Of a stretch of DNA of 64,000 bases, positions 12,219 through 15,982 are shown in pieces; the stretch's first letter is position 1, and each line of letters starts with the position of its first letter. Origin of the DNA: Gottfriedia acidiceleris (GTDB lineage Bacteria; Bacillota; Bacilli; Bacillales; Bacillaceae_G); the NCBI RefSeq assembly GCF_023115465.1, contig NZ_CP096034.1:2294001-2358000 (forward strand). Reading direction: 5' to 3'. Made by a program: the position numbers and the translations under genes. Under the pieces are notes generated by a model. That model saw only the letters and a list, made by a program, of their open reading frames with translations, did not search any database and was not told the origin of the DNA.

Positions 12219-13325
12219 ATGAAACGAATTATAAGTAAAATTATATTAGTAGCTGCAAGTTTATCATTTACTATACTTCCAAATGATGTACTGGCAGAGA
12301 ATATAGAAAATACAAAGATTAAGAGTATTCAAGATAAACGAGTAAAAGTTCAAGAAGAAGCACAAAAAGCAAAAAATGAGATGAATCAATTAAATGATCA
12401 GAAAAAATTGTTATTGAACTCTTTAAATACAATTAACAAATCAATTGAGAATGCAAAAATAAAGAAGAGCCAAAAAGTGGCTGAATTAATAAATGGCAAA
12501 AAAGAAATAGAAAAATTACAAGTTGAATTAGAAGGACTTCAAAAATCAGTTGGAAATAACTCATATATAGATGTTATTTTTGATGCAAAAAGCATTGGTG
12601 ATTTAGTTCAACGAATAAACGCTATTGGTAAATTTATGAATGCTGATAAAGACTTGGTTAAGGAACAAAAGAACGATATTGAAAAAGTAGAATTGAAAAA
12701 GAAAGACTTAATCTTAACTCAATTTAAGTTGAAAAATGATAAAAAAGATCTTCAAAATTTAGAACGTTCACTTGTTAATCAAGAAACTCAGATGAATGCT
12801 ATACTAAGCAAACTTAAGGATGATTTATTTGAAAAGGAACAAGATATTTTGAGTTTAGAGGAACAAGAAGAGCTATTAAAAGAACAGGAAAAAGCAATAA
12901 AAGTCGCTTCAAGTATTTCAGGTGGAAATTTTACTCGACCAGCGGAAGGGTATTTATCTTCAGGTTTTGGATACAGATCATTTGATCATGAAACACATTT
13001 TGGCGTAGATATTGTTAAAAAAGGAAGTACGCCGATTGTCTCAGTAGCAAATGGCGTTGTAATACGAGCTTACAATTCAGCTAGTTACGGTAATGTTGTT
13101 TTTATTACTCATAATATTAATGGAAAAGTATTTACATCAGTTTATGCTCATATGCAAAATTATCAAGTCTCAGCAGGTCAATCTGTTTCAAAGGGGCAAA
13201 AAATTGGAACGATGGGAAATACGGGGCATTCTTTTGGTAAGCATCTTCACTTTGAATTGCATGATGGTCAATGGAATGAGGCAAAATCAAACGCAGTAAA
13301 TCCAGCAAAGTATATTAATTTTTAA
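12219..13325 (+). CDS. Secreted coiled-coil M23 peptidoglycan hydrolase
   Basis: This 368-residue protein has a Sec signal peptide ending near VLAEN, a long coiled coil (about residues 30-230) and a C-terminal LytM/M23 zinc peptidase domain (about 245-368). The zinc motifs are HFGVD (His260, Asp264) and HLHFE (His342, His344). The layout matches coiled-coil hydrolases of the CwlO/EnvC sort that cleave peptide cross-links in peptidoglycan; B. subtilis CwlO itself ends in NlpC/P60 instead. The coiled coil suggests control by a partner such as FtsEX. A WalR box and promoter lie upstream, RBS is AGGGAG, and a strong terminator follows. Confidence 0.9.
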   Translation: MKRIISKIILVAASLSFTILPNDVLAENIENTKIKSIQDKRVKVQEEAQKAKNEMNQLNDQKKLLLNSLNTINKSIENAKIKKSQKVAELINGKKEIEKLQVELEGLQKSVGNNSYIDVIFDAKSIGDLVQRINAIGKFMNADKDLVKEQKNDIEKVELKKKDLILTQFKLKNDKKDLQNLERSLVNQETQMNAILSKLKDDLFEKEQDILSLEEQEELLKEQEKAIKVASSISGGNFTRPAEGYLSSGFGYRSFDHETHFGVDIVKKGSTPIVSVANGVVIRAYNSASYGNVVFITHNINGKVFTSVYAHMQNYQVSAGQSVSKGQKIGTMGNTGHSFGKHLHFELHDGQWNEAKSNAVNPAKYINF

Positions 13326-13339
13326 GCTTTTATATATTT

Positions 13340-13385
13340 ACAAACAAAAAACAGTCTATTTTTAGCTAGACTGTTTTTTGTTTGT
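13340..13385 (+). terminator. Terminator of the M23 hydrolase gene
   Basis: A very long stem, ACAAACAAAAAACAGTCTA with TAGACTGTTTTTTGTTTGT, and an 8-base loop. It lies 14 bases after the stop. Confidence 0.9.
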
Positions 13386-13403
13386 GGAAAGATATGTGAG
13401 TGA

Positions 13404-13598
13404 AGTTTATCGGATAAAAAAAAATGGATTCCTTTAAAGGTAAAATTAGAAAATACGACAATTGAGGAAGAAAGAGTAAATATAAAAAAGAAGGTTATCA
13501 TTCAAAGCAAGGTGGTGTATGAGGAACAACAAGAAATAGAGAATGGTTATTATTTGATCATCCTCTATTTTACTAAACAACGGTTAAGAAGAATTTAG
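13404..13598 (+). pseudogene. Unassigned coding relic
   Basis: About 65 open codons read KKKWIPLKVKLENTTIEEER, then VIIQSKVVYEEQQEIENGYY and LIILYF before a stop. No start codon or RBS precedes it, and a TGA closes the frame directly upstream, next to a run of nine A that could mark a frameshift. It looks like the tail of a lost gene; the family is not recognised. Confidence 0.3.
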
Positions 13599-13645
13599 TG
13601 TTTTTTAACAGGTTAAAAACAGCATTCTTATCTAATACAAAATCG

Positions 13646-14530
13646 TTAATAGAATTTCGATTCATATACAGATTCCCAATCCGAATCAGTGATATAGGTA
13701 ACTGATGGTGTATTCGTACAATGACTGTTACGAACGCCTTTCCCCCCGATGACAAACTTTAAATGGGTATTTGTTTTAATACATGATTGAATCCACTTTT
13801 CTATCCTAACTAAATGAGCAGAATTGGTAATTGAGATTGTAATAATAGAAAGTTTCTTATGCTGAATTAAATCAAATAAACCATCAAGAGGTGTATTCGG
13901 TCCTAAATAAATCACTTCATTTCCTTTTTTTTGTAAGAATATACTAAACATCATTAGTCCAATGTGATGATTTTCTCCCTCAGGACAAAAAGCTAAGACT
14001 TTAGGCAGTGCCTTGTTTATTGGTAAAATCCTTAAAAACTGAGCAAATCTGTTTATGATAAATTGAGAGGCAAAGTGTTCCTGAGCAACAGTCGCTTTTC
14101 CTTTTTCCCATTCATCACCAATTCGATATAGGATTTCTGCCAAAATATGATGAAAAACATATTCATAATTAAACAATGAAAAAGCTAGTTCAATTATACT
14201 GTTTGCTTCTTGTGTATCCATATTCATAAGTGATTGATACAACTTGTCTTTTATAGCTATTATATCTTCATGAGATTTGCTACTGGGTAGGGGTTCAATT
14301 GACGACTTATAGGTTGATTGGTTTAGAAGTTGGACAGCCTCACTAACTTTCATTCGATTCTTTGTTGTTTGCTCTTTTAACCATTTTAAGGTTTCTAAAT
14401 CTTTTTTGCTATACATGCGGTGTCCACCTTCTGTTCGCATTGGACTGACGACATGATATCGATTTTCCCAGGCTCTTATTGTTACAGTGGGTACGTCTAT
14501 TAATTCAGATACTTTTTTTATACTGTACAT
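13646..14530 (-). CDS. carH: CarH-type MerR/B12-binding light-responsive repressor
   Basis: This 294-residue protein joins a MerR DNA-binding domain (MYSIKKVSELIDVPTVTIRA, then WENRY and EGGHRMY) to a B12-binding domain pair. Two hallmarks of adenosylcobalamin photoreceptors are visible: the Wx9EH motif (Trp141 ... Glu151-His152) in the helical bundle that covers the adenosyl group, and ExHxxG (Glu186, His188) that supplies the cobalt ligand. CarH tetramers bind DNA in the dark and fall apart in light. Three TATACA repeats at 11-bp steps lie just upstream of its own gene, so autorepression is likely. The divergent neighbour is a DUF378 gene. The ATG at 14530 sits seven bases after GGAGGTG. 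Confidence 0.9.
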   Translation of the reverse strand: MYSIKKVSELIDVPTVTIRAWENRYHVVSPMRTEGGHRMYSKKDLETLKWLKEQTTKNRMKVSEAVQLLNQSTYKSSIEPLPSSKSHEDIIAIKDKLYQSLMNMDTQEANSIIELAFSLFNYEYVFHHILAEILYRIGDEWEKGKATVAQEHFASQFIINRFAQFLRILPINKALPKVLAFCPEGENHHIGLMMFSIFLQKKGNEVIYLGPNTPLDGLFDLIQHKKLSIITISITNSAHLVRIEKWIQSCIKTNTHLKFVIGGKGVRNSHCTNTPSVTYITDSDWESVYESKFY

Positions 14531-14551
14531 TATCAATCACCTCCCATTAGC

Positions 14552-14579
14552 TATACATATTTTATACAAAAACTATACA
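14552..14579 (+). promoter_or_regulatory. CarH-type operator: three TATACA repeats
   Basis: TATACA occurs at 14552, 14563 and 14574, exactly 11 bp apart. Known CarH operators consist of three 11-bp direct repeats of the form TnTACA, to which the DNA-binding domains of a tetramer dock. The array lies directly upstream of the RBS of the carH gene, where it would block its promoter. Confidence 0.8.
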
Positions 14580-14636
14580 TGATTCAAGGGAACTTAGATG
14601 AATAATAAATTTAAAAGTTGAGAAAGTAAAAAATGA

Positions 14637-14666
14637 TTGTCATTTTTGTATAACTTTTTGTATAAT
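14637..14666 (+). promoter_or_regulatory. Promoter of the DUF378 gene with overlapping CarH half-sites
   Basis: TTGTCA (14637-14642) and TATAAT (14661-14666) with an 18-bp spacer form a clear sigma-A promoter. TGTATA, the reverse complement of the CarH repeat unit, occurs at 14647 and 14659, inside the spacer and across the -10. A further TATACA lies at 14680. Repression of the DUF378 gene by the divergent CarH-like protein is a reasonable inference, although the spacing here is 12 bp rather than 11. Confidence 0.7.
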
Positions 14667-14709
14667 ATTTAATGTAAGTTATACAAATTTTATAAGGAGG
14701 ATAACAAAG

Positions 14710-14907
14710 ATGAAAACATTAAATCTTTTGGCTTTGGTGTTGATTATTGTGGGAGGGTTAAATTGGTTATTAGTAGGACTATTTAAATGGGATCTAGTCG
14801 GAGGCATATTTGGTGGAATGGATAGTGTTTTTGCAAGAATTGTTTATATACTCGTAGGTCTTGCAGCTATCTATAGTTTTAAGCTTCTATCTAAGGTATC
14901 TAAATAA
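14710..14907 (+). CDS. DUF378 small membrane protein
   Basis: A 65-residue two-span membrane protein with the DUF378 pattern: LALVLIIVGGLNWLLVGLF, a DLVGGIFGG turn, then RIVYILVGLAAIYSF. B. subtilis YuzA is of this family; function is unknown. RBS is AAGGAGG. Its promoter overlaps CarH-like sites, and the divergent gene encodes the CarH-type repressor, so expression in light is predicted. This would make it the apparent target of the photoreceptor in this locus. Confidence 0.88.
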   Translation: MKTLNLLALVLIIVGGLNWLLVGLFKWDLVGGIFGGMDSVFARIVYILVGLAAIYSFKLLSKVSK

Positions 14908-15982
14908 AAACTTTTAAATGAATTTTATTAGATTAAGAGTGACTTTTTTTAAGGCACTGGTTGTATTAGTCGTAACCTTTTTTTATAATATAAATTAACC
15001 TACTAGTATATATAATTAAATATCCTTTTTTATACTAAAGTGTCCCGCCATTATAAAAAATTATATTGCAGGATTACCACAATGAAAAAATCAATTCTTG
15101 AGAGTGATAGTTCAACAACAAGTAGAGGCTGATCCTTATACGATCAGCCTTTGCATTGCTATTCTGGAAAAAAAGCTATAAATGCTTTATCTGGTTTAGA
15201 AATAATATGTAACTATAAATAACTAAAATTTTAAAAGGAGTAACCTAAGTTACTCTTTTTTATTTTATGTAAAACAGAGGGGAAAATGAAATTCTTAAAA
15301 GAAAACTAACGGGTTCGATAGTTTAAAAAGAGATAATACCGAAACTTTCTTCATCAAAAAAGGGGCAGTTTGGTACTGGTGGAAGTATGTTATGTCTCAC
15401 ATTTGGTTCAAGAGAGGAGGGATTTAGGTCGAATTAAAACAAAAATACCATATGTAAACATATTTGTGTTCCTGAATGTATACACTTTCGGTTCAACTGT
15501 TCACCTACACAAATGTGCTTACTAGAGAAAAACCTATAATTTTATCTTTGTTTTGAAGTTTCATTTAATTAATAATTTTTAGGAGATAGGTAATGAATTA
15601 GAGGTTCACATTAATTAAAATGTTAGTTGTTTTAATAGTAATTTCGATCCTTTTACTTTATGAGGCATTATTTATTCAATAATAAAAGTTTTAAAATTAC
15701 CGTTAAAGTATTAAAGTTAACAATAAAGTAGATTTCAGCGGAATGGAGTTGAAAGTATACGTTTCGATTAGATGTAATAGTTTTAGGAGGCTATCTTAAT
15801 CCATAGGAGTGTTATTTCTCATAATACTTATATAGTCGATTTCTTCAAAGAGTAATAAGATCAGTTAGTTGATTTTTTTCGATTTTAAATGAAAATGATG
15901 AATGAACACCACAAAAATCGTATAGGATTAAAATCAAGACAAACAATAAAACGAGAAAAACTAAAGAGAAAAAGGTGTTTTT
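14908..15982. other. Long intergenic region with two hairpins
   Basis: No convincing gene was found over about 1.07 kb. A perfect AGGCTGATC/GATCAGCCT hairpin lies at 15126-15150, and a terminator-like AGTAAC/GTTACT stem with a T run lies at 15238-15263. At 15593 an RBS (TTAGGAGATAGG) precedes an ATG whose third codon is TAG; the frame continues as a hydrophobic peptide (MLVVLIVISILLLYEALFIQ) to about 15681. That looks like a broken small membrane protein. The promoter of the next gene should lie near the end of this stretch. Confidence 0.35.

Follow-up and report, generated by a model that had tools for sequence, protein, structure and literature searches.

In the window, the 64,000-nucleotide stretch of DNA that we analysed, a gene encoding a CarH-type regulator and a gene encoding a small DUF378 protein are transcribed divergently, with six predicted CarH half-sites at the locus. 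The features are as follows.

13398..15506, no strand: segment carrying carH and DUF378, probable acquired cassette (blastn; ends approximate)
13646..14530, minus: carH-type gene, 294 aa, with MerR HTH, B12-binding_2 and B12-binding domains
14536..14545, minus: probable ribosome-binding site of carH (GGGAGGTGAT), read from the sequence
14552..14557, minus: predicted CarH half-site 3, 11 bp on from half-site 2; 5/5 to nAnnTnnACAn
14563..14568, minus: predicted CarH half-site 2, 11 bp on from half-site 1; 4/5 to nAnnTnnACAn
14574..14579, minus: predicted CarH half-site 1 (TGTATA); 5/5 to nAnnTnnACAn
14559..14587, minus: candidate carH promoter TTGAAT-17-TAAAAT, overlapping the operator (consensus scan 9/12, match only)
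14637..14666, plus: probable DUF378 promoter TTGTCA-18-TATAAT (consensus scan 11/12, match only)
14647..14652, plus: predicted CarH half-site in the DUF378 promoter spacer; 5/5
14659..14664, plus: predicted CarH half-site overlapping the -10 element, 12 bp on; 4/5
14680..14685, minus: inverted predicted CarH half-site between the -10 element and the ribosome-binding site; 5/5
14694..14700, plus: probable ribosome-binding site of DUF378 (AAGGAGG), read from the sequence
14710..14907, plus: DUF378 (PF04070) protein, 65 aa, divergent from carH (Pfam 1.4e-23)

The CarH-type protein matches MerR_1 (8.8e-14), B12-binding_2 (7e-12) and B12-binding (1.6e-11) in Pfam, and its start is likely the ATG at 14530, preceded by GGGAGGTGAT, rather than the TTG at 14536. 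Two motifs define CarH homologues, Wx9EH and ExHx2G-x41-SxV/T-x22-27-GG (PMC8156234, in excerpt). The first-pass annotation had described a MerR-B12 protein with Wx9EH and ExHxxG motifs, and we located the reading frame and both motifs as claimed: Wx9EH is WEKGKATVAQEH at residues 141-152 (W141-H152), ExHxxG is ENHHIG at residues 186-191, and the longer motif fits with spacings x41 and x26 in its SxT form. The photoreceptor signature GxxW, EH, GxxH and GxxxP (PMC11796333, in excerpt) is complete, as GDEW, EH, GENH and GPNTP. In a PDB sequence search, LitR/CarH of Thermus thermophilus (3whp/5c8d) gave the best matches, and 5c8f, 5c8d and 5c8e were the top structural matches of an AlphaFold (AF2) model built from 20 of the 31 CarH loci (mean pLDDT 86), with a whole-chain TM of ~0.55 because the domains are differently placed. 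The best family match was the NCBIfam CarH equivalog NF052513, at 144 bits against a cut-off of 400, below which two carH orthologues that we scanned likewise fell; we take this threshold to be narrower than the review's motif-based definition. At the level of sequence, it is confirmed that 14530-13646 (minus strand) encodes a CarH-type MerR-B12 repressor, which would bind B12; an adenosyltransferase (PF01923) is present in all 22 genomes examined.

Before carH, direct repeats of nAnnTnnACAn lie over the candidate promoter in three units at exact 11-bp steps, just as had been noted in the first pass. TGTATA half-sites had also been placed across the DUF378 promoter; these were recovered at 14647, 14659 and, inverted, 14680-85, with a direct step of 12 bp and not 11 bp. 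All six half-sites at the locus resemble the published nAnnTnnACAn pattern, four at 5/5 and two at 4/5. The step between the direct half-sites before DUF378 is 11 bp in L001, L002 and the g64 loci, and the region between the -10 element and the ribosome-binding site contains two inverted half-sites in many relatives and one in the window, where the second is altered. The predicted operator of the window DUF378 gene is weaker than those of its relatives in having a 12-bp step and one inverted unit, and because the operator model described below also reports no direct DUF378 pair in the window at E<=1, repression may be weaker than in the relatives. The pattern TGTATAN{5,6}TGTATA matched three times in the window, always at the carH-DUF378 locus, where 100 shuffles gave 0.05 matches on average. 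Single TGTATA words are only mildly over-represented (74, compared with 53 on average in 100 shuffles, one of which attained this count); the significance of the sites lies in their spacing, not in single-word frequency. The promoter consensus as such showed no excess in the window (5 matches against 4.4 by chance).

The DUF378 protein scores 82.9 bits against the PF04070 gathering score of 25. By hydropathy and an AF2 model of low confidence, with helices at residues 2-25 and 40-64 and a mean pLDDT of 69, it is probably a two-helix membrane hairpin. A small two-helix membrane protein is common to carH-linked DUF378 and to other members of the family, including YuzA of B. subtilis, whereas the linked type differs in its distinct sequence (NWLLVGLFxWDLVGG) and its operator.

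Conservation of the carH-DUF378 pair and of the operator spacing

We collected 31 carH loci, three from named genomes (carH identity 76, 76 and 74%) and 28 from the 397 genomes of the order searched at E<=1e-60, the own genome included. An intact divergent DUF378 gene adjoins carH at 12 of these loci (the window, L001 of Neobacillus niacini, L002 of Bacillus sp. FJAT-29814, L036-L041, L043, L044 and L051), all 12 above the PF04070 cut-off and seven of them from one genus; decayed remnants lie beside carH at two loci (L042 and L049), and no DUF378 was seen beside it at 17. Of the two genes, linked DUF378 is the better conserved, with pN/pS against the window copy of 0.08-0.21 for DUF378 and 0.23-0.45 for carH (six comparisons each), and 39 of 65 columns are invariant among the 12 linked copies. 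Some DUF378 gene occurs in 29 of the 30 genomes searched. Beyond the order, 48 of 398 genomes of the class matched carH at E<=1e-70, and loci were obtained for 30, three of them already counted. Among the other 27, no DUF378 was seen in 24, one of which (L214, G531) appears to repeat the Ammoniphilus genome, and the carH reading frame was not located in three. We found no report of the carH-DUF378 pair in the collection of open-access papers searched, a scope outside which most subscription papers lie.

Two neighbourhoods deserve a separate remark. The sub-threshold remnants at L042:2639-2722 and L049:1176-1256 (PF04070 E 3.5e-4 and 8.1e-4) lie beside an intact carH with its operator kept, and both genomes contain a crtM-like gene. 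At L003:4721-5734, in Ammoniphilus resinae, no DUF378 was found, and a divergent operator pair precedes, as judged by eye, a signalling gene with PAS and methyl-accepting-like parts.

In a tree of the 31 carH loci and six of 18 paralogue loci, the DUF378-linked carH genes do not form one group; the label changes three times, a number that one of 500 shuffles did not exceed. Several forks are weakly supported and long branches are flagged, so that the tree gives no firm order of DUF378 gain and loss.

The operator spacing was counted in the 330 bp upstream of 22 carH loci (the window, L001-L003 and L036-L053), with the nine more distant loci (L054-L062) set apart. Of 43 same-strand TGTATA pairs lying no more than 40 bp apart, 38 are spaced by exactly 11 bp, and the rest of those 22 loci contains no such pair over 104,658 positions (1,100 of them spacer N). 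Among the nine distant loci, an exact 11-bp TGTATA pair lies upstream of carH only at L061, and L056 has a TGTACA/TGTATA pair. With limited degeneracy allowed in the second to fourth half-sites, an arrangement in which two units face two inverted ones (→→ ←←) was found in the DUF378 promoter at seven of the 12 intact loci (L036, L037, L038, L040, L041, L043 and L044) and also at four loci with a decayed or missing DUF378 (L042, L047, L049 and L050); in the window, L001, L002, L039 and L051 a half-site or the spacing is altered. As a comparison, 30 DUF378 loci were fetched, of which two were not parsed, one was carH-linked and 27 were unlinked, and none of the 27 has an operator pair within 400 bp. 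These include two that resemble the linked type (L089 of G373 and L090 of G183), in genomes whose carH is not linked to DUF378. The search for carH-DUF378 adjacency with 11-bp repeats that the first pass had proposed therefore has a positive outcome, in several genera.

Might the repeats be plain A+T-rich promoter sequence and no operators at all? They do coincide in part with -10 elements, and TGTATA as a single word is frequent. Nevertheless, the exact 11-bp step of 38 of 43 pairs, with none elsewhere in those loci, the lack of any pair at the 27 unlinked DUF378 loci and the enrichment of operator pairs in the carH genomes as a set make this explanation very improbable. Chance as the origin of the TGTATA repeats was rejected on the spacing statistics, the control patterns and the bare unlinked DUF378 loci.

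Other operator targets and the relation to carotenoid genes

We looked for the exact pair TGTATAN5TGTATA in 30 genomes, using the reversed pattern as a control, and summed the totals by hand. The pair occurred 105 times against 15 for the control in the 22 genomes with a window-type carH, and 15 times against 10 in seven family genomes without one; for lack of a carH match at E<=1e-60, G020 (3 against 0) was kept out of both sums. The own genome alone is barely enriched (4 against 2). We also built a 25-position operator model from 37 carH-locus sites and ran it on 17 genomes; it matches the window locus by construction, since the window sites are among its input. In the own genome, where 150 of 5,483 first-look candidates were scored, the carH-DUF378 locus gave E values of 0.0024 and 0.27, the two other matches were at chance level (E 0.6-0.7), and no other operator rose above chance. 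No SQS_PSY match was found in this genome, nor the crt genes with CarH sites that mark a regulator of carotenogenesis. The first-pass annotation had regarded DUF378 as the only visible target; by the operator model and the SQS_PSY search this holds for the own genome, but not for other carH genomes, where this operator is also found in front of carotenoid, DUF4397 and other genes.

These further targets were seen in 40 regions that we chose around operator sites, some at weaker own-genome sites. First, operator pairs precede crtI-type desaturases (NCBIfam crtI_fam) in six genomes, G020 included (L127, L128, L129, L137, L150 and L157). Second, they precede DUF4397 genes (PF14344) in seven genomes (L132, L134, L135, L136, L141, L153 and L158). 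Third, they lie beside Spx/MgsR-like genes in five genomes (L122-L124, L139 and L154; in the family scan, L122 only), and at L122-L124 another regulator gene faces the same operator sites. Control of the Spx/MgsR-like genes by CarH would place an RNA-polymerase-binding stress regulator under light.

Some details of these regions were noted in passing. The DUF4397 protein is secreted, and a sortase gene adjoins it at L134, with similar small genes elsewhere (by eye). The Spx/MgsR-like neighbourhoods lie at L122:2240-2663, L139:2704-3291 and L154:1876-2475; at L122 the target could equally well be a divergent ArsR-like gene. In the Ammoniphilus genome that holds L003, an operator-like pair that may be due to chance (L148:1940-3602, model E 0.11) sits between superoxide dismutase-like and short-chain dehydrogenase-like genes (by eye).

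The breadth of these targets raises the question of whether the real task of CarH is a wider regulon of carotenoid, DUF4397 and Spx/MgsR-like genes in which DUF378 is a minor passenger. The operator pairs in six, seven and five genomes, respectively, speak for such a regulon, as does the survival of carH where DUF378 has decayed. Against it, in four of the 17 genomes run (the own genome, G400, G401 and G051) the top-scoring model sites are all those of the carH-DUF378 locus, and none of these four has an SQS_PSY match; the own genome has a DUF4397 protein with no model match near it; and linked DUF378 is the more conserved of the two genes. We therefore consider the passenger role unlikely. 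As a general statement, on the other hand, DUF378 as the sole purpose of CarH was rejected, because 19 of 31 loci have no intact copy and other targets exist elsewhere.

The presence of linked DUF378 was then compared with that of carotenoid genes in the 22 closest of the 31 carH genomes. A strong crtM-like SQS_PSY match (over 150 bits) was found in none of the 12 genomes with an intact linked DUF378 and in seven of the 10 without (Fisher p 0.0007), or in 1/12 and 8/10 with weak matches included (p 0.0015), in a comparison whose genomes are not independent, since seven of the twelve share one genus. The counts are given both ways because the weak matches, in G340 and G402, have no crtI-type neighbour in the ~3.6 kb seen. 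In G254, which belongs to that genus, DUF378 is decayed, a crtM-like gene is present and a CarH-type operator stands in front of a crtI-type gene. Among the ten genomes, however, G208, G373 and G402 (weak match only) have neither, so that the exchange of DUF378 and carotenoid genes is a tendency, not a rule.

These observations also bear on the possibility that CarH senses the availability of AdoCbl, such that DUF378 would be released at B12 scarcity for a B12-related membrane task. AdoCbl is needed for repression whether CarH senses AdoCbl or light, the CarH proteins of T. thermophilus and B. megaterium are poor binders in their apo form (PMC8156234, in excerpt), and no feature of the window indicates light as such. 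However, the residues of the photoreceptor signature are retained, relatives have the same operator before crtI-type genes, the usual light output, and a Pfam scan of nine window proteins around the locus found none that is B12-related except CarH. We regard a role in sensing AdoCbl as improbable.

A predicted mobile light-response module

How might the pair have reached this genome? In two congeners (L248 and L249), ~163 bp replaces the 2.1 kb between the sequence left of 13397 and that right of 15507, with a short right-hand flank match (92 columns, 82%); six other congeneric loci match the left flank only, ending at 13325-13455. In G+C content the segment does not stand out (0.305 against 0.307). 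The window-type carH occurs in one of 19 family genomes, the own, and in none of the other 18. To judge from these comparisons, acquisition of the segment would fit best, and loss in the relatives is a second, less favoured possibility. On plasmids, only distant relatives of carH were found, in Thermus (32 records) and Caballeronia (one).

A CarH-like match exists in 18 of the 19 family genomes, but outside the window locus it represents a paralogue of 29-34% identity, which in the own genome is without the Trp and Pro of the photoreceptor signature. This second MerR-B12 protein (G000:C1:1854129-1854788; L016, L035), of 312-315 aa and adjoining a MecA-like gene (by eye), occurs in all 13 genomes of the genus. 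Cys stands for the Trp of Wx9EH at eight of 13 loci, Trp is kept at two, and there is no GxxxP; the protein may be a CarH paralogue that is blind to light or takes another ligand.

With the window CarH, T. thermophilus CarH/LitR (5c8d/5c8e/5c8f) shares domain order, Wx9EH, B12 motifs, model fold and three tandem 11-bp units, which in the window lie before carH. The two proteins are ~29% identical, and the T. thermophilus targets are carotenoid genes, whereas the visible target in the window is DUF378. The operator of Bacillus megaterium CarH is likewise located at crt genes, in contrast to the window genome, in which no SQS_PSY gene was found. Inverted CarH arrangements may not be wholly new, because Myxococcus xanthus is known to have palindromic CarA sites. 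B. megaterium CarH (LitR), also a Gram-positive CarH with an operator of 11-bp units, has four tandem direct repeats (PMC8156234, in excerpt); the two units facing two inverted ones in the DUF378 operator of the window's relatives differ from the tandem repeats described in that excerpt.

That a B12-photoreceptor module appears to control DUF378, the central proposal of the first-pass annotation, is supported by the motifs, the operator sites and the conserved pairing. Judging from the motifs, the predicted fold and the operator-like sites, we consider it likely that carH-DUF378 is a self-contained CarH light switch with DUF378 as its light-induced output; we infer DNA binding, B12 binding, a light response and control by repression. 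By homology with known CarH proteins, repression would come from the AdoCbl form in the dark and be lifted by light (PMC8156234, in excerpt). In the dark, AdoCbl-loaded CarH would bind the 11-bp half-sites at the carH and DUF378 promoters and block both; in the light, the Co-C bond would be broken, the CarH oligomer would dissociate and transcription of both genes would follow. The small membrane protein would then be a light-induced output replacing the carotenoid genes of relatives, and this exchange suggests a photoprotective role for DUF378. More tentatively, and with some doubt, we speculate that the two genes might form a horizontally moving cassette, that DUF378 and carotenoids might interchange as photoprotective outputs, and that the →→ ←← arrangement might represent a further grip of the CarH oligomer on DNA.

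Our best reading is that carH-DUF378 is a small, probably mobile light-response module whose output is DUF378 instead of carotenoids. As such, it would be a compact natural two-gene light switch of ~1.3 kb, would link an uncharacterised membrane family to a light sensor whose working is well understood, and suggests that CarH photoreceptors may serve non-pigment light responses in genomes in which no crtM-like gene is found.
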